From the NCBI GenBank assembly GCA_963575645.1, contig OY754464.1, forward strand, positions 5,456,001-5,520,000: a stretch of 64,000 nucleotides of DNA, given 5' to 3'. The translations under genes and the position numbers were made by a program. Positions 294 through 59,328 of this stretch are shown here, one piece after another (positions within the stretch are counted from its first letter, which is position 1; each line of letters opens with the position of its first letter). This stretch comes from Xanthostigma xanthostigma (taxonomy: Eukaryota > Arthropoda > Insecta > Raphidioptera > Raphidiidae). The notes under the pieces were generated by a model. It saw only the letters and a program-made list of their open reading frames with translations, made no database searches and was not told where the DNA came from.

Positions 294-709
294 ATGCCAA
301 GTTTTATCAGTACTACTGTAATTTTTTATCTCCTTGAATTTTCTATTTTATGTAACTTTTTAGTTTTTACGTAATCAACTGACATTGCTACAATATTGTT
401 TCTTCCTCAAAAACAGTTCAGTCTCTGCCTTCAGCGGTATTATATCATTACCAAATAATATTTAATTAATTTTCAATCAAGATTTGTTTAAGATCCAGCT
501 ATCTTTATACCTACAAGAGACTTGATAAATAATAATTTCTAGACTAATAACAATTCGATCTAAATCGCGTAATAAAAGAGCAAGTTCTTGAAGTGTATTA
601 AAAATTGTTCACGACAAAACAAAAACACCTGATCATTTCATTACAAATAAAATTATTAAAAAGATAAAATATGCGTTTGGTGGGCTTTCAGACAGAATAT
701 AATAAAAAA

Positions 710-950
710 TTGGTTGTCTGTAAAGTCGGTTTACGGACGATAGTTTTACGTGATAACGCATTCCGCTCGAATATCATATTTAATAATACATAACCTAAAT
801 TTTAGTGGCTGTCAAACTTGGGCCGATCGTGATTCTCTATCGCTTATACTGCGCTCTCGCTTGCACGCACATGGTCAGGTGGAACGTTACACTTTTTCGT
901 GCGTGCAGCTGGTGTTTCATCAATTTATAAGACGTTATCACGTCAAAAAT
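710..950 (+). repeat. Dispersed 240-bp repeat, copy 1 (TTGGTTGTCTG...CGTCAAAAAT)
   Basis: This unit starts TTGGTTGTCTGTAAAGTCGG and ends GACGTTATCACGTCAAAAAT. Copies occur in the opposite orientation at 16506-16700 and 41503-41752. Internal inverted motifs GTGATAACG and CGTTATCAC frame the middle. The central part varies between copies while the ends are conserved, as expected for a short non-autonomous transposon. A 71-codon open frame inside it is not conserved between copies and is not treated as a gene. Confidence 0.7.
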
Positions 951-7616: not shown

Positions 7617-8934
7617 GCTCAGTGGGTACTGGATCAACTTCAAAGAAAAAAATCCAATATTTTATTAATATCGATTGTTCATAATAGCCAATAGGTGTGT
7701 TTATTGGTCAAGTCTTCGACTATTGTTTTTCAATGAACTGATTAATTACAAAAATCAGCCTCGAGTATGCTCTGTGCGGTTGTCGAAGCGTTTTAAATAC
7801 ACATTTACTCACGATTATCAGCCTCGATAGTACTAACTCCCGGCCCGGAACTGCTTGAACTGAGTTCGAACATTCCGAGAATTAGACCAGTCCGAGAAGT
7901 GCCATCGCTTTGGAACTGACGGTACCAGTTCAGAACTGCACCGACAAACACGCATAAATATGAAAACTTAAATCGGTGTTCCGATGCAAAAGTCTTATTT
8001 TAGCTCTACTATTGACCGTGATGTTCGCTTCTGAGAAAATTCACTCATGGTGTATTTTGAATTCTTTTTATGCAATAATGAGGAAGTCGTTTTCTTTTAC
8101 TGTTTATAAATTATTGTTTCAAATAAGTTTTAATATAAAAAAAGATCATGCAAGTTGTCTATTACAAACATAATGCACACTGTAATAGTTTTTATGACGT
8201 GAATGTGGCACCGTATTACAAAAATGTTGATTAAAAGTTGGTACATTTATTAATTTTCTACTTTTTTACAGGTTCTCGTCACTTAAAAATGAATATTTGT
8301 GACAAAAGGTGTAGACTTTATGTTACGGTCAAGTTACTTAAAATGCGTTGCTTCGTGAAAAATTTAAAAATTTTGTATGTCGATTTTTTTTTCATAAAAA
8401 CTATCGTTTATTTATGCGCGTTAAGTTGCATGGACCAACTTACATTTTTTTAACTTTTTCAACGCCAATCGTTTGTTCTAAGTTTGTACCGAAAAAATAA
8501 AAAAGTTATTAAATAATAGATGGCCAGCCAACTTGACGTCAAGTTGTATGGACCACGTCCTAATAACCACTTTTTTCAACTTTTTCAACCCTAATCGTTT
8601 GTTCTATGTTTGTACCTGACGCCTACAAAATTTCAGCGTTTGTACCGAAAAAAAAATATAGTTCAAAAAAAAACTAAAAAACATGCTTTATATCGAACTA
8701 AAAAGTAAAAAATAATTTTTTTAAAATAAGCTTAAAAAGCGCTTTTTAAGCTTATTTTACTTTTTAGTTCGATATAAAGCGTGTTTTTTAGTTTTTTTTA
8801 AACTATATTTATTTTTCACTTTTTAGTTTGATATAAAGCGTGTTTTTTAGTTTTTTTTTTAAACTATATTTGTTTTCCACTTTTTAGTTCGATTTATTGT
8901 CAAAAATTTGCCGAAAAACAAACAATTTTTTTTT

Positions 8935-9030
8935 CGGCGTGGACGGGATTAGAACCCACGACTCGTGATGCCGAGAGTTGACGTCAGCGAAGACCCGTGC
9001 CTTAGACCGCACGGCTACCAGTGTGCTTAC
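8935..9030 (-). repeat. tRNA-derived SINE head or class II tRNA pseudogene
   Basis: On the minus strand the sequence has an A-box-like segment (TAGCCGTGCGGTCTAAGGC), a long variable region and a B-box-like GGGTTCTAATCCC followed by GTCCACGCCG. This resembles a class II (Leu/Ser) tRNA. The 5' strand does not pair with the 3' acceptor strand and the B box carries a change (TCTAA for TCGAN). It is therefore probably not a working tRNA but a SINE promoter region or tRNA relic. Confidence 0.5.
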
Positions 9031-9168
9031 TGTGCTGGCATATTATACCGCTATATAAACCACTTGCTGTAGTCCAAATGAAAGTTACAAACATACATAC
9101 AAACTTACAAGTGAAGTTAATATAAAGCGTGCAATAAAAAAAAGTTATTAGCAAGTCACTAATAAATG

Positions 9169-9246
9169 TACACTACTGGCCAAAAGTAAAGCGATTGAGT
9201 AATTTGAAAATTAAACTTAGTCACTTTACTTTTGCCCAGTAGTGTA
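9169..9246. mobile_element. Tc1-like mini-MITE
   Basis: TACACTACTGGCCAAAAGTA at the left and ACTTTTGCCCAGTAGTGTA at the right are inverted, in the style of Tc1/mariner termini with TA at the outer edge. The flanks (AGTCACTAATAAATG, GTTATTAGC) are inverted as well, so the palindrome is larger, roughly 9133-9284. Confidence 0.55.
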
Positions 9247-9798
9247 CATTTATTAGTGACTTTTGCTAATAACTTTTTTATTTTTTCGGTACAAACGCTG
9301 AAATTTTGTAGGCGTCAGGTACAAACATAGAACAAATGATTGGCGTTGAAAAAGTTGAAAAAATGTAAGTTGGTCCATGCAACTTAACGCGCATTGTTTA
9401 TTTTGCTTAAAAAACGTCTACTTATAATGTTTGGCTATCCATCGGAAAATATACAATTATCCGCACTGAATTAGATCAATTAGACCAAAAGCAAACATGC
9501 TAATTTTTCAAGTTTCCTCAGGGGCGATGCCTCGATTGTACAACCCCCGTTAGCAAAATTTTGCTAGTCCATGCCCGATTTCAATATAATATAAAAATAA
9601 CTATTCCCTGACAATTCTAAAAACGGGAAAAAGTATTTTTTTTTTTAATCTGAAACTAGCTAATTTTTGTGTACTGACGCAAAATAGATATTTATCAGAA
9701 ATTATCCTGCAGTAGGTTATTTCTTATTTAATTATATATTATTTATTTTTTTAATACATAGTTTAATAATCATTTTGTACGTTTTGACCGTCCCTAAG

Positions 9799-9907
9799 CA
9801 GTGACAAAAAACCAGAATATTTTTTTTTTGTCGGACAGATCATCTTCAGGCGTGAAAACGTCGCTCGTGAGTGATGGCAAACTGAGAAGGTTCTGGTTTC
9901 GTCACTG
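9799..9907. mobile_element. Small MITE (CAGTGACRAAACCAGAA ends)
   Basis: CAGTGACAAAAAACCAGAA at 9799 is matched by TTCTGGTTTCGTCACTG ending at 9907. The ends begin CAGTG as in hAT elements, but the flanking 8-mers do not match, so the assignment is weak. Confidence 0.45.
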
Positions 9908-10408
9908 ATCGTATCATATTATATCCTATGAATACCGAATTATTGGCCCGGTGCAGAGTATAGAGTGACGACTGAACCGATCGCAGCGTGAGCTGTGGAC
10001 TAAATAAATAAATTGTGCAACGGTTATAGAGTATGATTTGATGTGGCCATTAAATGTCGTTTTCGTCGCACTCCCTGCCATATCGTTTATTAATAGCAAA
10101 GCAGTTCAATCCCGCTCTGTTGCCCGCTAGTGGTCTTCGTGAAAGTAAACGTTGTCCTAATTATATATTATACTCAGTATATTTTTTTCAGTGCAACAAC
10201 ATAAACACTATATCTCCCTGGGTATAGAAATTTCAATAATTGAAGGTTTTGTTTATTTATTATTACAGTTGTTTGCTCATTTGACACATGTCATAAGAGC
10301 ATTAAAAATTGCGAACGGTAGGCAGTGCTGCCGTCACGCACCCAGCGAATACGTGGAGGTTCAAAATTGCGGAGCCGATAGAACATGTAAAAAAAAGTTT
10401 TTATTATA

Positions 10409-11239: not shown

Positions 11240-12100
11240 TTTTTAGGCGCGAATAGCGTAAGCTAAAGCGCCTATATGTACTCGCTTTGTCTGTGAATCT
11301 GTGAGTCACGCTTTTTGTATCCAGCGTACAGCCCAAACGACTTAACCGATTTTAAAAAACTTTTTTTTGTTAGATTTGTCTCCGGGTAACTTAAATCCTA
11401 ACGTCGCCCGATTTTTGAATTTTTGCTCCAGAGGGGAGCAATTTAGAAAAAACGAAGTTTTTCGCTTATAACTCGCTCAATTTAAATCAGATCGGTTCGA
11501 AACCTGTCTTAAACGAAAGAGGAGAAAATTTTACATAAATTTCGTACAACAGAATTCGCCCAATCACTTTTCTTATACACATTTATATAGAAATAAATTC
11601 AATCTGATATAACCGATAGCAAACATCTTTCGGTTATCTCTCTCTGTTGCACGGTATAACATGGTAATTTAATTATTGCGTATGTTCTGTCTTAAAATAA
11701 AATTGGTCGATAATTTTATTTATGACAATAATAAAACAAAGGAGATAGCATTTGTTCAAAAACGGATGCCATTTGAAATATTTATGAAAAGCAACGCCTT
11801 CTAAGTTAACAATTTGAATAACTAATTATTAGAACTTAATACTTTGACAGCTGATGCAAACGTCACTTTTGACATTTCTTATCATTCCGACATCAAGGAA
11901 GAGCGGATTGAAACCAAATTTTGGGAGGATGTTTGATATGCAAATATGAAGTGGCCTATTGTTTTTGGGGAACATCGGCGCATGCGTAAAAGAATATATC
12001 TCTTATAATGTTGTTTTATATAATAATAATATAGATTTTAAAACGGTTTTTACTCTATCTATTTTTACTAGAAGTTTTTGTAAATTTTTTGGGGAAAATC
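11240..12100. repeat. Non-coding repeat flank leading into the satellite
   Basis: This segment has no gene. It begins with a motif (GCGCGAATAGCGTAAGC, about 11249) followed by low-complexity mobile-element-like sequence. From about 11895 it matches, in reverse orientation, the 48100-48250 segment of the FEM1C intron (GAAACCAAATTTTGGGAGGA; CGGCGCATGCG). The last 100 bases are a unit of the 250-bp family seen again at 16.7-17.4 kb, so the same family flanks the 120-bp array on both sides. Confidence 0.5.
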
Positions 12101-15100
12101 GGTGACGTCACTATAAATCCAATATGGCGGACATCTAAAGATGGCGGACTAATTTTATTATGTTTTCCTACAATATGGGTATCAAATGAAAGGGCTTGCT
12201 GAGAATAACTCGAAAAATAAAGTGACGTCACTCTACATCCAATATGGCGGACTTCTAAAGATGGCGGACTAATTTTATTATGTTTTCCTACAATATGGGT
12301 ATCAAATGAAAGGGCTTGCTGAGAATAACTCGAAAAATGAAGTGACATTACTCTAAATCCAATATGGCGGACTTCTAAAGATGGCGGACTAATTTTATTA
12401 TGCTTTCCAACAATATGGGTATCAAATGAAAGGGCTTGCTGAGAATAACTCGAAAAATAAAGTGACGTCACTCTAAATCCAATATGGCGGACTTCTAAAG
12501 ATGGCGGACTAATTTTATTATGCTTTCCTACAATATGGGTATCAAATGAAAGGGCTTGCTGAGAATAACTCGAAAAATAAAGTGACGTCACTCTAATCCA
12601 ATATGGCGGACTTCTAAAGATGGCGGACTAATTTTATTATGCTTTCCTACAATATGGATATCAAATGAAAGGGCTTGCTGAGAATAACTCGAAAAATAAA
12701 GTGACGTCACTCTACATCCAATATGGCGGACTTCTAAAGATGGCGGACTAATTTTATTATGTTTTCCTACAATATGGGTATCAAATGAAAGGGCTTGCTG
12801 AGAATAACTCGAAAAATAAAGTGACATTACTCTAAATCCAATATGGCGGACTTCTAAAGATGGCGGACTAATTTTATTATGCTTTCTAACAATATGGGTA
12901 TCAAATGAAAGAGCTTGCTGAGAATAACTCGAAAAATAAAGTGATATTACGCTAAATCCAATATGGCGGAATTCTAAAGATGGCGGACTAATTTTATTAT
13001 GCTTTCCTACAATATGGGTATCAAATGAAAGGGCTTGCTAAGAATAACTCGAAAAATAAAGTGACGTCACTCTACATCCAATATGGCGGACTTTTAAAGA
13101 TGGCGGACTAATTTTATTATGTTTTCCTACAATATGGGTATCAAATGAAAGGGCTTGCTGAGAATAACTCGAAAAATAAAGTGACATTACTCTAAATCCA
13201 ATATGGCGGACTTCTAAATATGGCGGACTTCTAAAGATGCCGGACTAACTTTATTATGCTTTCTAACAATATGGGTATCAAATGAAAGGGCTTGCTGAGA
13301 ATAACTCGAAAAATAAAGTGACATTACTCTAAATCCAATATGGCGGACTTCTAAAGATGGCGAACTAATTTTATTATGTTTTCCTACAATATGGGTATCA
13401 CATGAAAGGGCTTGCTGAGAATAACTCGAAAAATAAAGTGACATTACTCTAAATCCAATATGGCGGACTTCTAAAGATGGTGGACTAATTTTATTATGCT
13501 TTCCAACAATATGGGTATCAAATGAAAGGGCTTGCTGAGAATAACTCGAAAAATAAAGTGACGTCACTCTAAATTCAATATGGCGGACTTCTAAAGATGG
13601 CGGACTTCTAAAGATGGCGGACTAATTTTATTAAGCTTTCCTACAATATGGGTATCAAATGAAAGGGCTTGCTGAGAATAACTCGAAAAATAAAGTGACG
13701 TGACTCTACATCCAATATGGCGGACTTCTAAAGATGGCGGACTAATTTAATTATGTTTTCCTACAACATGGGTATCAAATGAAAGGGCTTGCTGAGAATA
13801 ACTCGAAAAATAAAGTGACATTACTCTAAATCCAATATGGCGGACTTCTAAAGATGGCGGACTGATTTTATTATGCTTTACTACAATATGGGTATCAAAT
13901 GAAAGGGCTTGCTGAAAGTAACTCGAAACATAAAGTGACGTCACTCTAAATCCAATATAGCGGACTTCTAAAGATGGCGGACTAATTTTATTATGCTTTC
14001 ATACAATATGGGTATCAAATGAAAGGGCTTGCTGAGAATAACTCGAAAAATAAAGTGACATTACTCTAAATCCAATATGGCGGACTTCTAAAGATGGCGG
14101 ACTAATTTTTTTATGTTTTCCTACAATATGGGTATCAAATGAAAGGGCTTGCTGAGAATAACTCGAAAAATAAAGTGACATTACTCTAAATCCAATATGG
14201 CGGACTTCTAAAGATGGCGGACTAATTTTATTATGTTTTCCTACAATATGGGTATCAAATGAAAGGGCTTGCTGAGAATAACTCGAAAAATAAAGTGACA
14301 TTACTCTAAATCCAATATGGCGGACTTCTAAAGATGGCGGACTAATTTTATTATGCTTTCCAACAATATGGGTATCAAATGAAAGGGCTTGCTGAAAATA
14401 ACTCGAAAAATAAAGTGACGTCACTCTAAATCCAATATGGCGGACTTCTAAAGATGGCGGACTAATTTTATTATGCTTTCCTACAATATGGGTATCAAAT
14501 GAAAGGGCTTGCTGAGAATAACTCGAAAAATAAAGTGACGTCACTCTACATCCAATATGGCGGACTTCTAAAGATGGCGGACTAATTTTATTATGTTTTC
14601 CTACAATATGGGTATCAAATGAAAGGGCTTGCTGAGGTTAACTCGAAAAATAAAGTGACATAACTCTAAATGCAATATGGCGGACTTCTAAAGATGGCGG
14701 ACTAATTTTATTATGCTTTCCTAAAATATGGGTATCAAATGAAAGGGCTTGCTGAGAGTAACTCGAAACATAAAGTGACGTCACTCTAAATCCAATATGG
14801 CGGACTTCTAAAGATGGCGGACTAATTTTATTATGCTTTCCTACAATATGGGTATCAAATGAAAGGGCTTGCTGAGAATAACTCGAAACATAAAGTTACG
14901 TCACTCTAAATCCAATTATGCGGACTTCTAAAGATGGCGGACTAATTTTATTATGCTTTCCAACAATATGGGTATCAAATGAAAGGGCTTGCTGAGAATA
15001 ACTCTAAAAATAAAGTGACATTACGCTAAATCCAATATGGCGGACTTCTAAAGATGGCGGACTAATTTTATTATGCTTTCCTACAATATGGGTATCAAAT

Positions 15101-16496
15101 GAAAGGGCTTTCTGAGAATAACTCGAAAAATAAAGTGACGTCACTCTACATCCAATATGGCGGACTTCTAAAGATGGCGGACTAATTTTATTATGTTTTC
15201 CTACAATATGGGTATCAAATGAAAGGGCTTGCTGAGAATAACTCGAAAAATAAAGTGACGTCACTCTAAATCCAATATGGCGGACTTCTAAAGATGGCGG
15301 ACTAATTTTATTATGCTTTCCTACAATATGGGTATCAAATGAAAGGGCTTGCTGAGAATAACTCGAAAAATAAAGTGACGTCACTCTACATCCAATATGG
15401 CGGACTTCTAAAGATGGCGGACTAATTTTATTATGCTTTCCTACAATATGGGTATCAAATGAAAGGGCTTTCTGAGAATAACTCGAAAAATAAAGTGACA
15501 TTACTCTAAATCCAATATGGCGGACTTCTAAAGATGGCGGACTAATTTTATTATGTTTTCCTACAATATGGGTATCAAATGAAAGGGCTTGCTGAGAATA
15601 ACTCGAAAAATAAAGTGACATTACTCTAAATCCAATATGGCGGACTTCTAAAGATGGCGGACTAATTTTATTATGCTTTCCAACAATATGGGTATCAAAT
15701 GAAAGGGCTTGCTGAGAATAATTCGAAAAATAAAGTGACGTCACTCTAAATCCAATATGGCGGACTTCTAAAGATGGCGGACTAATTTTATTATGCTTTC
15801 CTACAATATGGGTATCAAATGAAAGGGCTTGCTGAGAATAACTCGAAAAATAAAGTGACGTCACTCTACATCCAATATGGCGGACTTCTAAAGATGGCGG
15901 ACTAATTTTATTATGTTTTCCTACAATATGGGTATCAAATGAAAGGGCTTGCTGAGAATAACTCGAAAAATAAAGTGACATTACTCTAAATCCAATATGG
16001 CGGACTTCTAAAGATGGCGGACTAATTTTATTATGCTTTCCTACAATATGGGTATCAAATGAAAGGGCTTGCTGAGAGTAACTCGAAACATAAAGTGACG
16101 TCACTCTAAATCCAATATGGCGGACTTCTAAAGATGGCGGACTAATTTTATTATGCTTTCCTACAATATGGGTATCAAATGAAAGGGCTTGCTGAGAATA
16201 ACTCGAAACATAAAGTTACGTCACTCTAAATCCAATATGGCGGACTTCTAAAGATGGCGGACTAATTTTATTATGCTTTCCTACAATATGGGTATCAAAT
16301 GAAAGGGCTTGCTGAAAATAACTCGAAACATAAAGTGACGTCACTCTAAATCCAATATGGCGGAGTTCTAAAGATGGCGGACTAATTTTACTATGCTTTC
16401 TTACAATATGGGTATCAAATGAAAGGGCTTGCTGAGAATAACTCGAAAAATAAAGTGACGTCACTCTAAATCCAATATGGCGGACTTCTAAAGATG
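12101..16496. repeat. 120-bp satellite array, about 37 monomers
   Basis: The monomer is 120 bp and very regular. Each contains AATATGGCGGACTTCT, AAGATGGCGGACTAATTT, ACAATATGGGTATCAAATGA, GGGCTTGCTGAGAATAACTC and an AAAGTGACGTCACTCTA or AAAGTGACATTACTCTA joint. Counting the AATATGGCGG anchor gives 37 copies. Phase breaks are few: a 1-bp loss near 12595 and about 19-bp local duplications near 13218 and 13600. Because 120 is divisible by three, the minus strand stays open across many monomers (up to 366 codons), but the repeated 40-residue product is an arithmetic by-product, not evidence for a protein. Confidence 0.95.
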
Positions 16497-16505
16497 GTGA
16501 CTAAG

Positions 16506-16700
16506 TTTTTGACGTGATACGTCTTATAAATTGATGAAACACCAGCTGCACGCACGAAAAAGTGTAACGTTCCATAACGTTCCGCCTGACCCTGTGCGTG
16601 TAAGCGAGAGCGCAGTAATGTATTATTAAATATGATATTCGAGCGGAATACGTTATCACGTAAAACTATCGTCCGTAAACCGACTTTACAGACAACCAAT
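16506..16700 (-). repeat. Dispersed 240-bp repeat, copy 2, abutting the satellite
   Basis: This is the same unit as at 710-950 but reversed: it runs from TTTTTGACGTGATACGTC to GACTTTACAGACAACCAATT. The satellite ends within about 10 bp of its edge. It marks the sharp right boundary of the array. Confidence 0.75.
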
Positions 16701-16706
16701 TTTTTT

Positions 16707-17380
16707 ATATAATAATGGTGTACTTTTATAATGTTTAATTATTCTACTTTACAAGAAAGTTTTCTAAAATGTTTTTTGAGGGAAAGTCGGCGCATGCGCA
16801 GAAGAGGTATAAGTTATAAAGTTGTTTGTATATAACAACGGTATACTTTTCATAACAGTTTATTATTCGATTTATTTTTACAAGAGTTTTGTATAATTTT
16901 TGGGAAAAATCGGCGCATGCGCAAAAGAGATACAAGCCATAGTTGTTTTTTATATAATAATGGTGTACTTTTTATAATGTTTTATTATTCTACTTTACAA
17001 GAAAGTTTTGTAAAATGTTTTTGAGGGAAAGTCGGCGCATGCGCAGAAGAGGTATAAGTTATAAATTTGTTTGTATATAACAATGGTATACTTCTCATAA
17101 CAGTTTATTATTCGATCTATTTTTACAAGAGTTTTGTATAATTTTTGGGAAAAATCGGCGCATGCGCAAAAGAGATACATGCCATCGTTGTTTTTTATAT
17201 AATAATGGTGTACTTTTTATAATGTTTTATTATTCTATTTTAAAGAAAGTTTTGTAAAAAATTCTTTGAGCTAAAGTCGGCACATATATGTTATAAAGTT
17301 GTTTTTATATAATAATTGGGTACTTTTCATAACGGTTTATTTTTCTATCTGTTTTTACAAGAAAGTTATGATTTTTTTTT
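16707..17380. repeat. Tandem array of about 250-bp dimeric units
   Basis: ATAATGGTGTACTTTT recurs near 16712, 16960 and 17205, giving a period of about 250 bp. Each unit is two diverged halves of about 125 bp, both carrying a CGGCGCATGCGC core: one followed by AGAAGAGGTATAAG, the other by AAAAGAGATACA. Single related units lie before the 120-bp array (about 11970-12100) and, inverted, in the FEM1C intron (about 48040-48130). Confidence 0.8.
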
Positions 17381-19840
17381 TCTAAACTCATAATTTCAGA
17401 AATATTTTGAAAACAAATCTGTTATTCTTTTGTTCTGAAGATGTTAGTTATGTTTAATTTTTGCATGACACAATAACATATTACATAGAGAACCATGAAT
17501 TTATTAAAATTATATTTTCCTTTCTGTGTTTCATTATTTTCAACTGTTATTTTTACTTAGAATAAGTAAATTAAGTTATACTATATTATTCTCCAAGTGT
17601 CGTTAAATATATACACCGATTTTCAAGCAAAACACCGGGGTATATGACGTAAAATTTCGCGCCTTGTAATTCTTGAATTACTTGGGTATATACTCCCACT
17701 GGTTTAAATTATTTTCGTTATAAAACCTTACTGAATGATATAAAAAGAAGCTCTCTCAATAAATGCATATTGTATAAGTTATGTAAAATATTGCATGATG
17801 CAATTCTTTGATATTATTTTGAGACAGAAGTCTAATCGTTTTGCGTCAAATTTGCACATTCAACAATCTTGGTATCAATAATTAATTTCTAAAAGGGGAC
17901 TGGATTAATATTTTAAACATTTTTTTTGCGATTTCTCCAGGCTAATTTTACTGCAATATTTAGAAAATAAAACAATTTATTTTACTCAGAATTTAAAAAA
18001 AAACTACATTATGTAATGATTTACAACATAATTACCTTCCGTAAGTATGTATAACAATAATGATACCATACCTATTATCTGAAATTAATGAAAAATAGAA
18101 AAGATGTTCTCTTTGGAGAAAGCGTTTGGATACAATCAAGCAAGTATGTTGCTAATATAATTTTATAATAATTTATTATATAAGAAGGATAAAAAACTTC
18201 GTGTCTACTACAAGCTGGCAACAATCAATACATAAATATATATTTTTAATATTATGGTTCGTTTTGAACGGTTCAGTCGCGAACGATTCAATAATAATAT
18301 GCATTACGAAACGTGAAGCTGTAGTTTACGCTCTACGCAAGCTGCCATGTTTAATGTTCTGCGGGGTGTGTAGGGCAACAAAACGGGGTGAAACATCCCA
18401 TTAAACAAACTGGTAGGTTATGTGTTGATTATTTATTATTACGCTAAACCATTGTTAAAAACACGATGCTTGTTTTGTAATGACATATGCAGTGGTTGTC
18501 CTAAAAGCGATGTGTGTATTTCATCATTTTTGTTTTATTGCGTCAAACCATGATATTGAGTTTCGGGTGACTCAGTGTTTGCAACTTAAGTACAAGGTTA
18601 CAACACTTCTGCAATTTTCTTTGTTCAATTTTCTTTACAGTTTTCGTGAGTTATTTAATTTGAACATTTGTTTTGGATGAAAATGTTTGGCTATGTTGTT
18701 TTGCGCAGCCAAATTTCTGGCACACTTTTTAAGCTACACCTAAGTACATTAAATAGGCGCCAAAGGCTATTTCTGCTAATGTACTGCGCGTAATTTTCTC
18801 TTTTTATTGTCAGGTACAATTTTTAAATACTCTAATATTCGTATAAAATTTATTACTCGTATTCGTATCAAAGCCCAATTAAAATTTGGCTGATTTTTTT
18901 CATTTCATGGTTTTTCCTTTTCAATAACTAATTTTGTGGTCAATGAGTGCTCATTTCAAGTGTTTATTTATATTCTTTTACTAATGTTTATTTTTGTTTA
19001 TTTCAGTTTACATGGGGTGGATGCATCTGCAAAAATATGCAGCGCAGTAAAATCAAAAGCAACTCGCAGAAATGAATCTTAATAACTTGTAACCATCAAA
19101 CTTATCTTCATAACCTAAAAAATACGCCTGTTTAAATCATAATATCGCAATTTTTGTTCGGAAATACTGTCTAATTACGTCTATTTTTGATTTTTATTTA
19201 AGTAATAATTTTTCGAGGCATCTACAGATATGAAGTATGATGTTTGATTCTTCGAATAAATCGTTGGATATTGTCTTTTTTTCTTATCCGCTTTTATTTT
19301 TTGCTGTTCGTGTCGTGAATAATAACCAGCCCTTCATGAAGATAAAATTTAAAAAGCTGCACTAAGGTATGTTTTCATTTTATAATAATTTATTTGATAT
19401 ATTTTGACGTTTTTCCAATGACATTTAACAGCTGATAAAAATATAGTTAAGAATAAAACTACATTGGCTTTAATTTTTATTCCTAGAACAATTTTGAAAT
19501 TATTTGACTGATTGACTCCGAAATCTAATCAATAATCCCTTTGAATGCCACAAACCCAATCTCGGTTGGTTTGCTCTTAATAAATACGGACGTCCGTCCA
19601 AAAATATGAAAACTCGATTTTCGGAAATCAGATTGAAACCAGTACATTTCCTTTTTTTAATTCGCATTCGCAAAATTCATGCGAATATTAATATAAGAAA
19701 AGAATCATATTAAAAAAAAATGTATAAATAGTATAAAATAACAAAAATATAAATTTCTTAGAATTTTTATTAGAAAAGTTTTTTCTTACTTTTTTTTTTT
19801 AAATAACAAGTTTTCTCGCTAAGGTAACCTTGCAATTATA
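17381..19840. other. Intergenic, no feature recognised
   Basis: This is AT-rich sequence with scattered homopolymers. The open frames here (for example near 18201 and 18480) are short, lack flanking splice signals and match no protein I recognise. Confidence 0.5.
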
Positions 19841-20849: not shown

Positions 20850-23800
20850 ATGAAGTATCCACAACTGGTGTCAATGCCCACAGCGGTGTCCGATTGGTTA
20901 GAGGAGCAGCTAGAAGCGCGAGGCATTGATGCTATAGTTTATACTCGTTACGTTCTCAGTCTTCTCCACCGCGATCCTTGCGATTTCGTTCAACCCGATT
21001 CAGATTTCAGTGAACTGGAACACTTAAAGGTAAGTTTTACGGCGCAATAGTTAACGCTGCATGTCGTGTATTCTTACTTCATAATTGTCACAAAATTAAA
21101 AAAAGTAAAATATCCATCAGAAGTTTTATTCGTTTTCTCGGTATTATTCGAAATAGGGGTGTTGCCAACGATTAATTAATTATTATTAATTATTATTATT
21201 TCCACACCCGCATTTGCAGATGTGAACGTCAAAAAATCCGCTGAAGGGCTCATGGAGGCTGATCTATGTTTTTACAGAGCCTAAGGCTTATTGAAGTTCA
21301 ATGGTGCTTCATTTTTTGTTGGATTATAAATCCAAAAAAATTTCAAAATTCATCAAAAAAATTGTCATAATTCGTTCAAAAAGTTGGCAAAATTCACCCA
21401 AAAAATTGTCAAAATTCATCGAAAAAATCGTCAAAATTCATCGAAAAAATCGTCAAAATTCATCGAAAAAATTCAAAATTCTTCCAAAAAATAAAAGTAT
21501 GTGATCCATAGTTAATGAAAAGTATTAACATGCAATTTATGATAATAATTCGATTTTTGTAAGCCCTACTAGTCTCTATGTAGATCCGCCTCTCAATTCA
21601 GATGTCGACCAACAAAAATATTAAGAATCATCCGTATAATTTTCGTCAAAGCTCTAACCGTGTTCGCTTATGCATGAGACGTGTGTGTGTTGTTTAGGGT
21701 GGTGTGAATCGCAGCGGGCGTCGCGGTGTACAAGGAGGGGGACGTAAGGGACTACGGTCGAGCCATGAGCTGCCACCACAACAGGTGTATCAGTTGCAGC
21801 GATCCGCTGCCGTTGAATGTCTCAAATCTGCTTCTGAACAGGTGCGTTCATATCAACATGCTGCAGTTTTGCTTGCTTTCGAGTTAAACTTCAAATCAAT
21901 ACTAATCTATACAGGGTGGTGACCTCGCGTGTCGATCACAGAATTTTAACATTTATTTTAGTCAAAAAACCAATAAACTAAATTATTCAGGGGCGTTAGT
22001 TGGACTTAGGTATCGTTTCGAGCATATATATGTATATTAATAGCTAGCGGATGCCTATCCTTGAGCATTGTGCGGAATGGTTCCAATTAGAAGCTATATG
22101 GAAGCCATTTTGTACGTGGAAAACTCCGTAAAAAGCGCGCGGGATTCAAAAAGATTAAATATTCTATAATATGATGTTAATGGAAAAACAATAAAACTCG
22201 CAGTAAACCGTGATATTTCGCTCCAAAACCTATTTTTATATTGAAACGTTTCAAAAATTACAAAACTGAGCATAAATATAATATAAAAGCTTAGAACATT
22301 TTACAGTCAGATTGACATCAATGCTTGTCAACCTTATGCCAAATTGACAATGTAAAATGTTCTAAGCTTTTACATTATATTTATGCTCAATTTGGTAATT
22401 TTTAAAACGTTTCATTATAAAAATAGGTTTTGGAGCGAAATATCACTGTTTACTGTGAGTTTTGTCGTTTTTCTCAATAAAATCATATTATAATTAATTA
22501 ATATTTTTGAATCTCGCGCGCTTTTTACGGCGTTTTCCACGTACAAAATGGCTTCTAAAAGTTACAGGAGGCGCTAGTGTATCCGCAATCTGTTAAATAT
22601 ATATATATATATTATATATATCTATGGTTTCGAGGCAGATGTAGAGCGTATTTTGATGGAGCATTTTCTTTTCAGAAATGTGGTATCGAGTCATTGGTTG
22701 ACGAACTTTGTGCAAAACTGAAGCAAGCGGAAAACGAAACGGATTGCACCTCAACGACAGTACAAACAGAGAGAACAACAAAAAATACGACAGAAAACAA
22801 GTACAGTAGTAAAATATCACAGGAAGATTTAGCTCGCCAATACTATGCCGCCTTTCCTCCGTTAAGTAATAACGAAACAAACGACGATCAACAATCTCAG
22901 TCTATTTCAATTATACCCCAGTCGGTTTCGTTTTGGAATAACATTACAGCAAAAAATAAAAACATTTCCAAAAGTCTAAACAAATCAGACTACAGTAGCA
23001 AACCCAAAGGTAACGCCATGAAGACAAAATGTACGAACGGTAAACGATACACAAATTATTTCGCACGGAACACTAAGAAGGATTCGACTAATTTCGGTTT
23101 TGCGATGGCCAAATCTAGAGGCATGGATTTTTGGGACGAACACGTGCGCTGGTACAATCAGCAGAATAATCTAGACGCCGTTTCCGCCAACGACGAAGGA
23201 TATGCCACTTCAGACACTATAAGAATCGACGACGAAACGTCCGATAAGAAAAACGAAACTTCGGACGATTTGGAGCAACTCGTCGCGAAATTCGATCGTA
23301 GCATCGAATCGCTGTGGAGTCCCGAACCTCATTCGAGCAACGACAATTTATTACCGGATAAAGAAGACGATTTTCAAAATTTGCCCGTTGATTTTCACGA
23401 ACTTTTATCGTCTCCTGTTGAACAGCAACCGCCGTCGGCCGAATTGTTTGGAATTGTAAACAAAGTTAACGTAACCGAACAACCGTTTATACAGAACGGC
23501 ACGAATATTACTAGCTCTATATGGTCGAGGAGGGATAATGAGATCGAAATGGATTGCTCGTACACGGATAATAGTTTCTATGACAGTTTGTTGAATGAGA
23601 ATCTTACTTTCAAAAATTCATCCGGTAATCAAATTTGGTCAAATGCCAAAACCGCCGAACGAAGCAAAGCGAATTCTTATTATGAGAATTTGACTAACAA
23701 TAACATCTTTGATGTGTCGTCATTCTCGAAGGAAAAAGATAAAGTTAGTACGGAGGAATCTCCGCTCGCGTGGGAAATCGGCTTTTCGAAATGGTCTGAA

Positions 23801-37277: not shown

Positions 37278-37543
37278 TCCAAAACATTTTGTTGAAAATA
37301 AACTACTTTATGCTGGTTATAAATTTGATCATTTGGATTGTTCTTGCTCTGGCAGAAAATATCAATAAAAACATTTCAATATAAAGTATTGTATTTCTCT
37401 TTTCTTTTCCAAATAATTACCTTAGATTAATAGGTCATAGATCAAAAACTTGACTCTTGAGTTTATTTCCAGGTGTAGTATGTCATTTTCTATAAGTTTT
37501 TCTTTTCCCTTAACCTTAGGTATTTAGAAATTAGACAATCTCT

Positions 37544-39160
37544 CGATCCGATTCAAATTCGGTAAGCTTAAGGAAAATGACACGTTGAAGTCAACAAGCC
37601 TATCGACTCCGTTGTACCACCTACGGTTTCAAAGATAGACTCGTTCGAAGTGCTCTTCCGAAAAGTCTGGAATACGCATCGGATACATTTCAAATTCGGT
37701 GTATTGATAGAAAACGACATTCTAAATTCAATGAGCGCACCCGGAGGTCTGTATCTAATACCGTTTCGAAAATAGAGACGTTCGAATGTGGTTTCAGTGT
37801 TCAAACAATTCAAATGACCGTCGAACCAAAAGTTGAGCGTATTTTTTGATTCGGAGTGTCATTTCCTGTTAGTATAAGCCGTCTGGACCTGAAAAGCGAG
37901 TTATTGGAAAATCTTGAAAATCGACTAAAAACGCGATTTTTCCCATAGTATAGCCTTAGTTTTTTTGTGATTTTTTTAAGACAATTTTGGACAATGTCTC
38001 CGATCCGATTCAAATTCGGTAGGCTTATGTAAAATGACACGCTGAAGTCACCGAGCCCCTCCGTTGCTTCGTATCACTTACCGTTTCGAAGATAGACCCG
38101 TTCGAAGTGCTTTTCTGGATTGTCTGGAATACGCATCGGATACATTTTAAATTGGGTGTACAGATAGAAAACGACACGCTGAATTCAACAAGCGCACCCG
38201 GAAGTCTGTATCTATAGCCGTTTCGGAGATAGAGGCGTTTGAACGTCGCTTCGGTGTTTAAAAACACTTTAAATGCCCACCGAACAAAAAGGTGAGCTTA
38301 TTTTTTGATTCGGAGTGTCATTTCCTGTTAGTATAAGCCGTCTGGACCTGAAAAGCGAGTTATTGGAAAATCTTGAAAATCGACTAAAAACGCGATTTTT
38401 CCCATAGTATAGCCTTAGTTTTTTTGTGATTTTTTTAAGACAATTTTGGACAATGTCTCCGATCCGATTCAAATTCGGTAGGCTTATGTAAAATGACACG
38501 CTGAAGTCACCGAGCCCCTCCGTTGCTTCGTATCACTTACCGTTTCGAAGATAGACCCGTTCGAAGTGCTTTTCTGGATTGTCTGGAATACGCATCGGAT
38601 ACATTTTAAATTGGGTGTACAGATAGAAAACGACACGCTGAATTCAACAAGCGCACCCGGAAGTCTGTATCTATAGCCGTTTCGGAGATAGAGGCGTTTG
38701 AACGTCGCTTCGGTGTTTAAAAACACTTTAAATGCCCACCGAACAAAAAGGTGAGCTTATTTTTTGATTCGGAGTGTCATTTCCTGTTAGTATAAGCCGT
38801 CTGGACCTGAAAAGCGAGTTATTGGAAAATCTTGAAAATCGACTAAAAACGCGATTTTTCCCATAGTATAGCCTTAGTTTTTTTGTGATTTTTTTAAGAC
38901 AATTTTGGACAATATCTCCGATCCGATTCAAATTCGGTAGGCTTATGTAAAATGACACGCTGAAGTCACCGAGCCCCTCCGTTGCTTCGTATCACTTACC
39001 GTTTCGAAGATAGACCCGTTCGAAGTGCTTTTCTGGATTGTCTGGAATACGCATCGGATACATTTTAAATTGGGTGTACAGATAGAAAACGACACGCTGA
39101 ATTCCACGAGCAAACCTGGAGATCTGTATCTAATACCGTTTCTAAAATAGAGGCGATCAA
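37544..39160. repeat. 459-bp higher-order tandem repeat
   Basis: CGATCCGATTCAAATTCGG recurs at 37544, 38001, 38460 and 38919, giving spacings of 457, 459 and 459. The middle two copies look identical; the first is clearly diverged and the fourth is partial. Within each unit, diverged subunits repeat about every 140-180 bp (GACACGCTGAAGTCA / GACACGCTGAATTCA / GAGTGTCATTTCC; CCGTTTCGAAGATAGACCCG / CCGTTTCGGAGATAGAGGCG), so it is a three-subunit higher-order repeat. Repeated minus-strand frames of 76-81 codons arise because 459 is divisible by three. Confidence 0.9.
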
Positions 39161-40517: not shown

Positions 40518-40825
40518 GTGTGTTCCGAAATATAATCCAGTATGCTGGCCAGTGCTAATGACGTCATGAATCCACGCCATACTGTTGATTCGTTCCGAAA
40601 TATACTGGCCAGCGTGTTGACGTATTATTATTTCCCTCGTCCACCAAAAGTAATTCTTTACTTTGTTGAGCAGACATTATTGCAAATAACAAATAATAAA
40701 ATTCCAAAAAGTCTGATGCACACATGTCCTGTTAAATATTTATGCTACGTCACATCTGTCTCACCAGTACAATTATGGCGTCGGATTCATTACGTGATCA
40801 ACACTGGTTATATTTCGGAACATAC
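40518..40825. mobile_element. MITE with GTRTGTTCCGAAATATAA ends, copy 1
   Basis: GTGTGTTCCGAAATATAATC at 40518 is inverted at the right end, GGTTATATTTCGGAACATAC ending 40825. Subterminal CTGGCCAGTGCTAATGACGT motifs follow. Flanks ACATTGG and TCATTGA may be a degraded duplication. A 96-codon frame is not preserved in copy 2 and is rejected as a gene. Confidence 0.75.
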
Positions 40826-41502
40826 TCATTGACAGAGAGCCAATACAAATGCCTTTTAAGTTGGTACACCACAAACCACAGCTTTGTGTAGCAGCTTTTA
40901 TACGCGTTGAGCGGCGCTGCTTTCTATTTATGAACAGATTAAAAAGGTCGAATTTAGTTACTAAATTCGTAAGGTTTCAAATGAATCAGCTTGGAGTCCT
41001 AGGCAACTGCTTATTTTGCTTATGAGTCCTGTTTCTCTTCAATTTCGACTATTCTCGACACACAATTAGCTATTTTCTCATTGTTCCCTTTGTTATATTA
41101 ATATGCTCAATGAGCCAAATTTCAAGTTTTTCTTTTAGAGTTGTAACGAATATCAGGTCTTCACATTCGCAATATTATGCGAAACATTTGCATTCGGTTC
41201 CGTAAACCTTTATTGCGATTGTTTTCGCAACATGCTTGCGTCACCTGGCGTTTTGATTGGATTAGATTTTAGACAACAGATGTGTTCTGGTTGGGAATAA
41301 TAATAATAACCAAGAAATAAATAAATCACGCGCTTTATTTCTTCCAATAACCTCGGTGCTTGGTTAACTGAGATTCTATTCTGAAACGGCGAGTGATGGA
41401 ACGTTTGCAGCATATTGTTTCTTACGTGTCGGGTTTTATAAGACGTTTTATCTAGGTATTTATTTCATTTTAAAATTGTGCTTGCTATGACAGTAACTCA
41501 TA

Positions 41503-41752
41503 TTTTTGACGTGATAACGTCTTATAAATTGATGAAACACCAGCTGCACGCACGAAAAAAGTGTCACGTTCCGCCTGAGTCTGAGCGTGCAAGCGAGAGC
41601 GCGGTATAAGCGATAGAGGCACGATCGGCCCAAGCGTCGGCTTGTACGCATTTCTCTCTCTTCTCGCGTGACGTCAGAGAGTTCATCAATGTTTCTTTAT
41701 GACGTTATCACGTAAAACTATCGTCCGTAAACCGACTTTACAGACAACCAAT
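41503..41752 (-). repeat. Dispersed 240-bp repeat, copy 3
   Basis: Runs from TTTTTGACGTGATAACGTC to CTTTACAGACAACCAATTTT, the same family and orientation as 16506-16700. The middle differs by an extra segment around GTACGCATTTCTCTCTCTTC. Confidence 0.75.
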
Positions 41753-42993
41753 TTTTTTTTTTAAACAAAACTGTAAATGTATTAATTAGGTACGTCTATG
41801 GAAAAGCAATTAAATAAAATTTTTTACTTGGAACCAAAGTCATGAATCCATCGGTCGCCGCATAAAAGGCACCGCTTCCGAGTTATGCTTCCGGTTATTT
41901 ACTTACTCTTGTGATGACAATATAGCTTTTTGTAATTTTATTGATACAATAATCAATTTTGTGAAAATAATTAAAAAAATTAATGACTCTTTTTCCTTTC
42001 GTATCCATTACAACTCTAATTTGTGCATTTTTATTTATCTATGTCCCATGGGGATCTACAAGATATAAACTTTATCTCGGATTAAGTTTTTCTACAGCGA
42101 ATTTCCCAAACGATTTTTGACACACCTTTGGAAAATATCTCGATATATTTCTTTTCTAATTTTTTTTATCAATGGGAGCCCCTAACGCTTATTATGCTAT
42201 CTCCCAATCTCTTATATCACCCGATCCAGTATCCTCGTTCCTTGTACTAGCTTGTACTGTCCTTGGACTGGGTGGTTAAATTTATGTTGATGAATGCATA
42301 ACTGTAATTTTATTTTTATAATGGGCTCATATTATTTAGTTACATTTCTATTTTAAACATTTTCATTATAAAAACCATCAGCACATGAATCGATTGTTTT
42401 GCAATTTCAATTCAAACCGGTTCAGGATTGGACAGTTGCGCAAATGGTTTGAAATCGATTGAGGTTCTCTGTCCGCACACGAGCGCGACTAAAACTGAAT
42501 TGCTTCTACCTTACAGAAGAAGCGAGCAACTAAAAGTGTTTCTCGACCTGCACACAGTAGAACCATTCTCTAACTTGCGAAGGGTCGAGGGGCCTGTTTG
42601 AAACGCAAATCGCAAAACAGTTGGAGGAACTTAGATTTTAAAAACTATCAGAATAGTGGAAAAAGAATCAAAATACGAAAATATTTCAAAATTTTAACAG
42701 AAAGAAAATTATTTTATTATTTAGGTAGACAGAGATTTAAAATTTTCTATTTAATTAATAATACTTGGTTTACAATATCCATTAGCTAAGTTCAAGTAAC
42801 CTGCCATTTGTCTAAGTTTCATACTTTCAAAAAACAAGACAATTGAACTCTCGAACGAAACTGAACAAATTCTCTACATTGCGTTCACCGTAAGAACATG
42901 ACTTGCTGCACCGAAGAGGAAAATTGAACAAAATCGTTTATTCTCTGCCTTCGCCGCCATGCCAAGAATATTTTAAATCCAATTAGTGAATAT

Positions 42994-56753: not shown

Positions 56754-57523
56754 ATACAGGGTGTCACATTAAGAATGGGACATAGAACAACCGCAGATTC
56801 TTCAATTCAAAATAAAACGATTAAGCGAAATATGCTTAGATAAAATGTTACTCGCTCTACCAGTGGCGTACGGCAGGAGTAAGTAATGCTTGTACGCCTT
56901 CTAAATGTTACGCCGCTGTCTAAATTTTAATTTTGACTATAATTTTAATTTTTTTGATATTTTCTAAGTCAATAATGTACACTTGCTAGTTTGTTGTAAA
57001 GTCATTGGTTTTCGAGATATTCGCAGTTTTTTTAAGACAAAATTGTAAAAATGAATATTATTAATAATAATACAAATAAAAAGTACATGTCTATCTATCT
57101 TTAACTGCGAATATCTCGAAAACCAATGACTTTACAACAAACTAACAAGTGTACATTATTGACTTAGAAAATATCAAAAAAATTAAAATTATAGTCAAAA
57201 TTTAAATTTAGACAGCGGCGTAACATTTAGAAGGGGTACAAGCATTACTTACTCCTGCCGTACACCACTGGTAGAGCGTACTGAACTAATTTTTTTATTG
57301 TTAGGTGCATTTTATGATATTTAACAAGTGTGCCGATTTGAGTAAAATTATACGGTGTATTAAAAAAAATTATGGACATTAATAATTTTTCAGTTTTCAA
57401 CTTCAACACCCCGTATTTCGGAAACGAGTAACATTTTATCTAAGCATATTTCGCTTAATCGTTTTATTTTGAATTGGAGAATCTGCGGTTGTTCTATGTC
57501 CCATTCTTAATGGGACACCCAGT
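56754..57523. mobile_element. Foldback element with nested foldback insertion
   Basis: The outer ends (ATACAGGGTGTCACATTAAG...TTACTCG) are inverted at 57420-57523. Inside, a second unit starting CAGTGGCGTACGGCAGGAGT (about 56872) and ending CTCCTGCCGTACACCACTG (about 57271) has arms of about 200 bp and a loop around 57030-57100. The inner ends are hAT-like (CAGTGGCG), but their flanks CGCTCTAC/GTAGAGCG are inverted, not direct, so the inner unit may simply be part of the same foldback. Confidence 0.75.
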
Positions 57524-58221
57524 ATTTTACTAGCTGTTCTATCCATCTCTAGTGATTCGTTTATTCTAATTGATACAGTGCGGTCCAAAATAATTGGCAG
57601 TAAATAAAAATTCGTTATCCGCGTCTGGTCGCTTATAGTTCTTCTAAACTAATAGCATGCGAGCCGCCGTAGAACGCCTGGCAGATGTGAAACATAAAAA
57701 CCGAAATTCTAGTAACTAAACGGCCTGTCATATCTAACGAAATTCTAATAACTAAATTAAACATATCACCAAACGCCACGTTAGCCACTCCGACACACAC
57801 ACTAACACGCAGCTGTCCAACGCATACACACAGCAAGCGCAAATGAAACGTAACACGTCCCGTGAACAGCGTCGCGCCAATTGCATTTTAACTCCCAACC
57901 AAACGCGCCATTAGATGTTCCACATCAAAAATCTACTCCCTCCCCATTTGGGTAGTTTTTCTAAGCGTCGGACACGCAGTGTTATTTCTTTTATAAGAAT
58001 TTTTCACACTTCTTTTAGAGACACGTGTACCGTTTAAAAAAGTTTACACTCTTCATAGGACACTTATCTTTTCGATTTTGATTAAGAACACTCAAATGGC
58101 TTGTTTCTAACACATAATCGTTTTGGAAAAATCTTTTCACCCCTTTAGGAGTTAACGTTCTTAGTGGTCGTCTATACGAGTCAGTCAGTCAGTGTGGACG
58201 CACTTATTTTATAACACATAC

Positions 58222-59126
58222 ACAGGGTGTTTGGCACATGAACCGACACAATTTTTTGGGGGGTTCTCGTGGTCATTGTGATCATTTTAACCCCAATGAC
58301 TTTTGCCCTAAGTGTCATGGTTATCGAGATACGATTTTTTTTAGTTATTTTCGAAAATCGGTCTAAAAATTGCCTTCAAAAAATCGTAACCTGTTTGTTT
58401 TTGGTACTAGAGACACGAAAATACATTTATTGAGTTCGCGAATGACTCCTTGTTCTAAATGAATCATAATTTTATGCAAATAGTATCAGGAAAAAGACCC
58501 TATGGACTTTTAAAGTGCCTGTATTAATAAAAATCAGTAGAAAAAAATAATTTAAAAATCATTTTAAAAAAAAATTAACGGGTATTTAGAAATTAGTTTT
58601 GTTTAGAAAAATACTCCACTTGATATTTTTTGGCGCACGAGTTGACTCTTGCAAACTGGTAATGTTTAATTTGGCTACATTCTGAATGATAAATATGACA
58701 TGTGGCATATCGTTGAAAAGAGGATAAAGTGGAGTATTTTTCTAAACAAAACTAATTTCTAAATACCCGTTAATTTTTTTTTAAAATGATTTTTAAATTA
58801 TTTTTTTCTACTGATTTTTATTAATACAGGCACTTTAAAAGTCCATAGGGTCTTTTTCCTGATACTATTTGCATAAAATTATGATTCATTTAGAACAAGG
58901 AGTCATTCGCGAACTCAATAAATGTATTTTCGTGTCTCTAGTACCAAAAACAAACAGGTTACGATTTTTTGAAGGCAATTTTTAGACCGATTTTCGAAAA
59001 TAACTAAAAAAAATCGTATCTCGATAACCATGACACTTAGGGCAAAAGTCATTGGGGTTAAAATGATCACAATGACCACGAGAACCCCCCAAAAAATTGT
59101 GTCGGTTCATGTGCCAAACACCCTGT
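58222..59126. repeat. Apparently perfect 400-bp inverted repeat with 105-bp loop
   Basis: The left arm 58222-58621 and right arm 58727-59126 read as exact reverse complements by eye, without gaps. The tip is ACAGGGTGTTTGGCACATGA / TCATGTGCCAAACACCCTGT. The loop 58622-58726 is unrelated to the arms. ACAGGGTG tips match the neighbouring foldback at 56754. No coding capacity. Confidence 0.9.
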
Positions 59127-59328
59127 ATATAGAGATTGATGCAAGGTTTCTCATAAATACGTAAGCATACAAATTGTTAATTAATAATTATTTAAATTAA
59201 ATACTCACTCAAACAATGTCTAATAAATAATAATATTATATCACACTGAAATATTGATTGGCAGGGTAAAGGCACCCATGGACGACCACTTAATATGTAT
59301 AGAATAGATTATACGAATATAAATCAAT

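Follow-up and report, generated by a model that had tools for sequence, protein, structure and literature searches.

A 120-bp tandem array with YY1/Pho-like words in Xanthostigma xanthostigma, the probable central repeat of a young Helentron family

In a stretch of 64,000 nucleotides from Xanthostigma xanthostigma (contig OY754464.1, positions 5,456,001 to 5,520,000; the window), a satellite-like array of 120-bp monomers lies at 12102-16510 on the plus strand. Its monomers carry pairs of the word ATGGCGG, which resembles a YY1/Pho binding site, and some also carry TGACGTCA, a palindromic cAMP response element (CRE). We found that this array is the central tandem repeat of a mobile element and not a free satellite. 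In the reading that we favour, with a probability of about 0.83, the element belongs to a young and abundant family of non-autonomous Helentrons (HINE), and the motif words hitchhike with it. The original prediction, made from the letters of the window, had proposed that the sites form a factor sink, a boundary or a Polycomb-recruiting array, or that they are just inherited sequence. The neutral motif columns and the copying by transposition described below speak for inherited sequence, while the sink, boundary and Polycomb roles gained no support from the sequence. The place of the array inside a transposon was not part of that prediction.

The window belongs to contig C1 of a 623 Mb assembly (genome G000). 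A search of this genome placed the array at many sites on contigs C1-C10 and C24, and many of the matches started at the first base of the query. We took 20 copies of 10 kb each (L015-L034), which were picked by their plus-strand match to the left junction of the array, so this junction is shared by choice. The similarity among these copies and the window extends past the array on both sides up to sharp ends, and this was not a selection criterion. Among the 21 copies, the window included, the 5' end was present in 20, the 3' end in 19 and both ends in 18, with unrelated DNA outside. Within the stretch examined, L016 and L021 showed no 3' end and L026 no 5' end. All 19 copies with a 3' end have TT after it. 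When the joined flanks were compared with other fetched DNA, we observed empty sites for L020, L022 and L028. These are T runs of 5-6, and insertion led to a net gain of two T. A poorer empty-site match, for L024, was found in the window itself (among the matches listed).

The family extends well beyond the copies taken. A 29-base word of the 5' end has 1,182 exact matches in the genome, while its reversed control has none. Mean identity among the 18 complete young copies is 99.5% for the left arm and 99.1% for the right arm. The element family is thus both young and abundant. The array varies in length, with 9 to 56 counted monomers (median 29.5) in the complete copies, and it is interrupted by 0.9-1.8 kb in L022, L031 and L034. 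Sixteen further 5'-end loci (L035-L050), all on C1, were taken among 100 matches listed and 3 kb of each was read. The 120-bp array was present in 13 of them and absent from the 3 kb read in three (L038, L042 and L046). In the 10 kb of L017, a second 120-bp array lies at about 8900-9980, past the 3' end of the first element.

The features of the element in the window are the following.

11240-17702 (+): whole non-autonomous Helentron (HINE-type), 6,463 bp; similarity between copies ends sharply on both sides
11240-11253 (+): 5' end, with the T-run TTTTT at 11240-11244 and then the 5' subterminal inverted repeat (subTIR) AGGCGCGAA at 11245-11253; placed by copy comparison and exact genome matches
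11268-11274 (+): internal inverted repeat GCGCCTA, the complement of TAGGCGC at 11244-11250, 17 bp apart
11290-11307 (+): short microsatellite with the 8-bp unit TGTGAATC, one unit here and 1-8 in the 20 copies read
12102-16510 (+): central tandem repeat 1, the 120-bp array, with 36 full monomers and a partial one of 56 bp
16506-16711 (+): module of about 200 bp after the array, found in the right arm of the compared copies and interrupted in L028
16701-17380 (+): central tandem repeat 2, in the right part of the element, with units of about 123 bp, four of them with the palindrome GCGCATGCGC
17656-17664 (+): 3' subTIR TTCGCGCCT, the complement of the 5' subTIR
17666-17681 (+): 3' palindrome GTAATTCTTGAATTAC, between the 3' subTIR and the 3' end

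The order is therefore T-run, subTIR, inverted repeat, microsatellite, left arm, 120-bp array, module, the ~123-bp units, right arm, 3' subTIR and palindrome. The element terminates with ...CACTGG, which is followed by TT. Its subTIRs are perfect over 9 bp; the first is separated by 5 nt from the 5' end of the element, and the second by 38 nt from the 3' end. No open frame of at least 100 amino acids was found in the element outside the array. The fixed ends, the subTIRs, the 5' inverted repeat, the microsatellite with the central repeats, the 3' palindrome and the TT/T-run insertion are together those of a Helentron of the HINE kind. The module, at a length of about 200-260 bp, also stands alone twice in the window, at 698-950 (-) and 41502-41763 (+).

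DINE-1/HINE Helentrons are described with subTIRs, an inverted repeat, a microsatellite, central repeats, a 3' stem-loop, TT insertion and variable T-runs (PMC4067079, PMC7492417). The window element shares all these structural features and, in addition, the absence of coding capacity (PMC4067079). A close parallel for the array is found in the Pacific oyster, where satellite DNA-like arrays are the central repeats of dispersed HINEs (Cg_HINE), as they are here. Some Cg_HINE carry two unrelated arrays in a row, just as the 120-bp array is followed by the ~123-bp units. The most abundant oyster monomers differ in being 140-180 bp long, and the likeness is one of structure (PMC7492417). Array growth inside Helitrons and Helentrons has been described as well (PMC12628747). 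The element is a HINE with satellite-like central repeats. The arrays of this family, with up to 56 monomers in complete copies, are longer than those known from DINE-1. Among the titles and abstract openings listed by our literature search, whose partial coverage leaves absence from print unproven, none dealt with the 120-bp monomer or linked YY1/CRE motifs to the central repeats of Helentrons.

The full monomers of the window array measure 120 bp in 33 cases, 119 bp in one and 137 bp in two. ATGGCGG occurs 70 times in 12102-16510, ATGGCGGAC 68 times and TGACGTCA 19 times. These counts bear out the predicted number of about 70 YY1/Pho-like sites and the CRE at 19 of 37 monomer joints, the 19 being the starts of 18 of the 36 full monomers and of the partial one. 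The pairing of the two words was likewise described correctly, although not for every monomer and not at the proposed spacing of about 20 bp. The word is intact at 70 of 76 possible positions (37 pairs and a third 17-bp unit in two monomers) and broken at the other six, and within a pair the distance between word starts is exactly 17 bp. With 10.5 bp per helical turn, this makes 1.62 turns, and 120 bp makes 11.43 turns. Since neither distance is a whole number of turns, neither the pairs nor successive monomers are in helical phase, and the idea of sites in phase at roughly 11 turns does not hold.

We read the ATGGCGG pair as a minisatellite, a 17-bp unit that was duplicated inside the founding monomer. 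The unit, ATGGCGGACTTCTAAAG, stands in two copies per monomer, the second copy being partial. The 659 monomers of the window and the 20 fetched copies include three of 103 bp, nine of 137 bp and three of 154 bp, and these hold one, three and four copies of the word of the 17-bp unit, respectively (15/15). One further 103-bp monomer was found among the 155 monomers of 13 copies from other subfamilies. The number of 17-bp units thus varies from 1 to 4 between monomers. Because the length variants differ by whole 17-bp units, the fixed spacing of the words is that of a slippage-prone repeat.

Both words match published YY1 sites well, in agreement with the proposal that the ATGGCGG core is a YY1/Pho-like word, and the complement of site 2 contains CGCCATCTTT, which is also present in a published Peg3 YY1 site (PMC11602158). 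When one monomer was shuffled 20,000 times with its dinucleotides kept, ATGGCGG arose at least once, counting both strands, in 1.5% of the shuffles and twice in 0.03%, while TGACGTCA arose in 0.05%, and these figures are tests of single pre-named words which were picked after reading, uncorrected for the number of recognisable motifs. Each word is thus improbable by chance in a single test against shuffled monomers, but the words were chosen post hoc and the monomers are not independent. The window array is one draw copied 37 times, so that its 70 sites do not count as independent, and the second word of a pair arose from the first by tandem duplication. Since the observed/expected ratio of CpG is 1.32 over the whole window, words that bear CpG are not depleted in it.

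The CRE is a palindrome of the founding monomer which multiplied along with the array. We take TGACGTCA to be recognised by CREB/ATF factors and GCGCATGCGC, which is presumably close to an NRF1 site, by NRF1 factors. TGACGTCA is intact in 359 of the 659 young monomers and lost in 300, mostly via one linked variant. This main alternative, TGACATTA, differs from TGACGTCA at two bases that change together, and it was found in 13 of the 36 window monomers and in 197 of the 659 monomers of the young copies. With two linked changes in this main alternative, the loss of the CRE is not a random decay. In the other subfamilies TGACGTCA is intact in 113 of 155 monomers. When compared with the proportion in the young monomers, this suggests that TGACGTCA is probably the older form, which would have become less common during the recent expansion. 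Few columns of the monomer vary as much as the eight of the CRE: they show 34 departures in the window, a number reached by 6 of the 120 possible 8-base stretches. Nine more TGACGTCA stand outside the array, at 8534, 8979, 35404, 35552, 40259, 40559, 41669, 45106 and 45331, whereas about one would be expected for the window at equal base use. Those at 40559 and 45106 sit in two copies of one repeat, and the one at 41669 sits in another repeated element.

To compare the variation of the motif columns with that of the other columns, we used 814 monomers taken from 34 copies (21 young ones including the window and 13 of other subfamilies). A rare variant was defined as one seen in at most two copies. 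The counts leave out segments whose length or identity fell outside the set limits (18 segments of the young copies and 17 of the other copies), and 9 of the 44 monomers counted for L017 belong to the second array beyond its element. In all 34 copies we counted 131 rare variants, 16 of which fall in ATGGCGG columns (15.3 expected) and nine in CRE columns (8.7 expected). The ATGGCGG columns hold 14 of 123 rare variants in the young copies (14.3 expected) and 12 of 112 in the other copies (13.1 expected), where the CRE columns hold 8 of 112 (7.5 expected). The private changes of the window array (n=34) gave the same picture, with five in the 14 ATGGCGG columns (4.0 expected) and three in the 8 CRE columns (2.3 expected).

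Intactness also failed to single out the words. Among 114 7-mer windows of the monomer, both words tie at rank 26 in the other subfamilies, while their ranks among the young copies are 53rd and 43rd. For the 24-mer that contains the pair, the rank in the sampled monomers is 23rd of 97. Genome-wide, this 24-mer has 10,108 exact occurrences, while two motif-free control 24-mers of the monomer have 11,914 and 8,177. Overall, these counts give no clear sign of excess constraint on the motif words. The original prediction had asked for this comparison of motif and other positions across arrays and had named beforehand, as the sequence-level outcome that speaks against it, an equal pace of mutation at motif positions and at the others. 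This is what we observed. In the 13 other-subfamily copies, columns 71-90 of the monomer, AATATGGGTATCAAATGAAA, vary least among the 120 placements of a 20-bp stretch (permutation p 0.002), and less than the YY1-like words. Rare variants are not depleted in these columns (25 vs 21.8 expected in all 34 copies), and we make no claim of constraint.

Copying also operated within the array, where multi-monomer blocks were copied together. Window monomers 18-24 and 29-35 show 2.0 differences per monomer, the second lowest value of 276 non-overlapping pairs of 7-monomer blocks (median 5.2). The lowest belongs to the overlapping neighbour at the same distance, monomers 17-23 and 28-34. Between copies, the monomer consensus equals the young consensus at all 120 positions in 9 of the 13 other-subfamily copies and has 1-2 differences in the other four. 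The left arms of these copies (first ~420 bp) are 87-99.8% identical to that of the window, and the four copies with arms of only 87-88% (L036, L041, L048 and L050) have the identical consensus. A nearly identical consensus next to arms with differences of up to 13% suggests an exchange or homogenisation of arrays between subfamilies. The contrast is overstated, since private changes do not show in the consensus of a single copy and since the arms are in part chimeric.

In the mechanism that we propose, the element copies would be moved by the Rep/helicase proteins of autonomous relatives. Unequal exchange or slippage, at the time of rolling-circle copying or later, would lengthen and shorten the arrays, and the ATGGCGG pair and the CRE would be multiplied with the array as passengers. 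Host factors may bind the motif words by accident. The Helitron_like_N domain (PF14214) has 89 matches in the genome, many of them in open frames of 1,500-2,500 amino acids, whereas 14 control genomes gave no match. This genome may still have active rolling-circle elements. Many of the PF14214 matches have the same score in frames of about 1,550 amino acids and some lie in frames above 2,400 amino acids; examples are C4:22521072-22521611 and C10:6816221-6816814.

Several points weigh against a Helentron family with passenger motifs. The perfect subTIR of 9 bp falls below the reported 11-15 bp, and the element also differs from HINE/DINE-1 in that no autonomous partner was found among the loci read (PMC4067079). 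We read upstream of 3 of the 89 PF14214 matches and found no autonomous element with matching ends there. Eight PF14214 matches on C1 lie below 39.07 Mb, and none of them has an exact 5' end within 10 kb upstream among the matches listed, as judged by eye. The good match of both words to published YY1 sites makes accidental binding plausible. In the 21 young copies, the CRE columns hold 4 of 123 rare variants where 8.2 are expected (one-sided p 0.08). In the 13 other-subfamily copies, departure from the consensus is 1.6% in the ATGGCGG columns and 3.1% in the other columns (one-sided p 0.11). Intactness there is 91% for both words, compared with a 7-mer median of 83.5%. This lower variation of the ATGGCGG columns is a weak hint of conservation. 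Finally, the young copies are so alike that the conservation test has limited power.

The boldest alternative is that the Helentron family, recently amplified, seeded more than 10,000 exact YY1/Pho-like pairs, together with CRE palindromes, in dense arrays. In vivo, these arrays would be mobile platforms of regulation that serve either the element or its host, with the consensus kept uniform across subfamilies by conversion or array exchange. Uniformity by such means has been reported for the ISX helitron of Drosophila miranda (PMC4384637). We consider this scenario unlikely.

We see a slim chance that the motifs serve the element itself, as tandem promoter or enhancer monomers that would, for example, open chromatin for rolling-circle copying or drive transcription through the element. 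The model for this is mouse L1 Tf, a mobile element whose 5' untranslated region likewise has tandem monomers. Every one of them holds a YY1 site of core GCCAT, and these sites activate the mouse L1. That system differs in being a retrotransposon promoter with shown YY1 binding and activity, whereas the words of the present array are putative sites (PMC11602158). A monomer consensus that is the same or nearly so across copies with quite different arms would suit such a role, and an array in 13 of the 16 sampled 5'-end loci is as expected of a useful module. However, three of these loci have no array in the 3 kb read, the element has no open frame of at least 100 amino acids outside the array and so needs no transcript of its own, and the motif columns are not clearly favoured over others.

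A function for the host has a slimmer chance still. Here the paired Pho/YY1 sites and the CREs would be under selection as a factor sink, a boundary or a Polycomb-type platform. Against it stand the absence of excess conservation overall, a CRE that is intact in only 359 of 659 young monomers, the lack of helical phasing, an array length of 9 to 56 monomers among the 18 complete copies and an element scattered over many chromosomes. What speaks for it is the quality of the motif matches, including the CGCCATCTTT shared with the Peg3 YY1 site (PMC11602158), the lower variation of the ATGGCGG columns in the 13 other-subfamily copies, which is weak (p 0.11), and a set of precedents. The D4Z4 macrosatellite is, like our array, a tandem array with YY1/Polycomb response element-like sites in each unit, and it is bound by YY1 and Polycomb proteins; it differs in its 3.3-kb GC-rich units, fixed loci and shown Polycomb binding (PMC3465993). 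Helitrons have given their hosts MSL sites (PMC4384637) and have spread PHE1 sites (PMC6914339). By analogy, ISX resembles our element as a rolling-circle element, one that spreads the sites of a chromatin complex, but its sites are bound and selected, while we found no clear sign of selection (PMC4384637). As analogies, L1 Tf, D4Z4, ISX and PHE1 are no evidence for a function here.

An ordinary satellite block of heterochromatin or of a centromere is next to excluded, since the head-to-tail 120-bp monomers and the copied multi-monomer blocks that would fit it are short arrays inside a mobile element with fixed ends, scattered on at least 11 contigs and in the window about 7 kb from a LETM1-like gene, and the shared element ends already contradict it.

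With the array placed in a Helentron, a puzzling satellite with factor sites becomes an explained object, the central repeat of a young family that has spread through the genome. This means that large motif counts, 70 in one array and more than 10,000 pairs genome-wide, can come from the copying of one monomer and not from selection. Should factors bind the sites all the same, the family would offer a natural experiment in which a genome has to cope with surplus YY1/Pho sites by the thousand.

We also considered a coding role for a minus-strand frame of 366 amino acids, made of 40-amino-acid repeats, at 15004-16104 (-). Its substitutions show no coding constraint: the 43 distinct substitution variants of the 120-bp window monomers comprise 10 silent, 27 replacing and 6 stop variants, vs 10.5, 30.5 and 2.0 expected. 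The coding role was rejected on these counts and because monomers of 119, 103 and 137 bp shift the frame. The Pfam matches of the frame (DUF4984, YnhH-like) are weak and were taken as chance. A common origin of the 120-bp and 123-bp units found no support, as their alignment score lies within that of shuffles (10.5% of 200 reach the plus-strand score against the right-flank units). No Rfam family was found in the window at gathering score, and the phage search gave no match. The pattern of the ATGGCGG pair had no match in IMG/VR and one in genome_contigs (L006). Five IMG/VR contigs matched GGGTATCAAATGAAAGG, with only 17-18 unbroken bases in common with the monomer around this word, and we took these matches as chance, given a rough estimate for the size of the collection.

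The window holds other repeats as well. A tandem repeat at 37534-39155 has 459-bp units in 3.5 copies with 94% matches. Three stretches of about 430-910 bp, at 58218-59130, 56853-57278 and 22101-22555, match their own complement at 88-94%, like fold-back elements.

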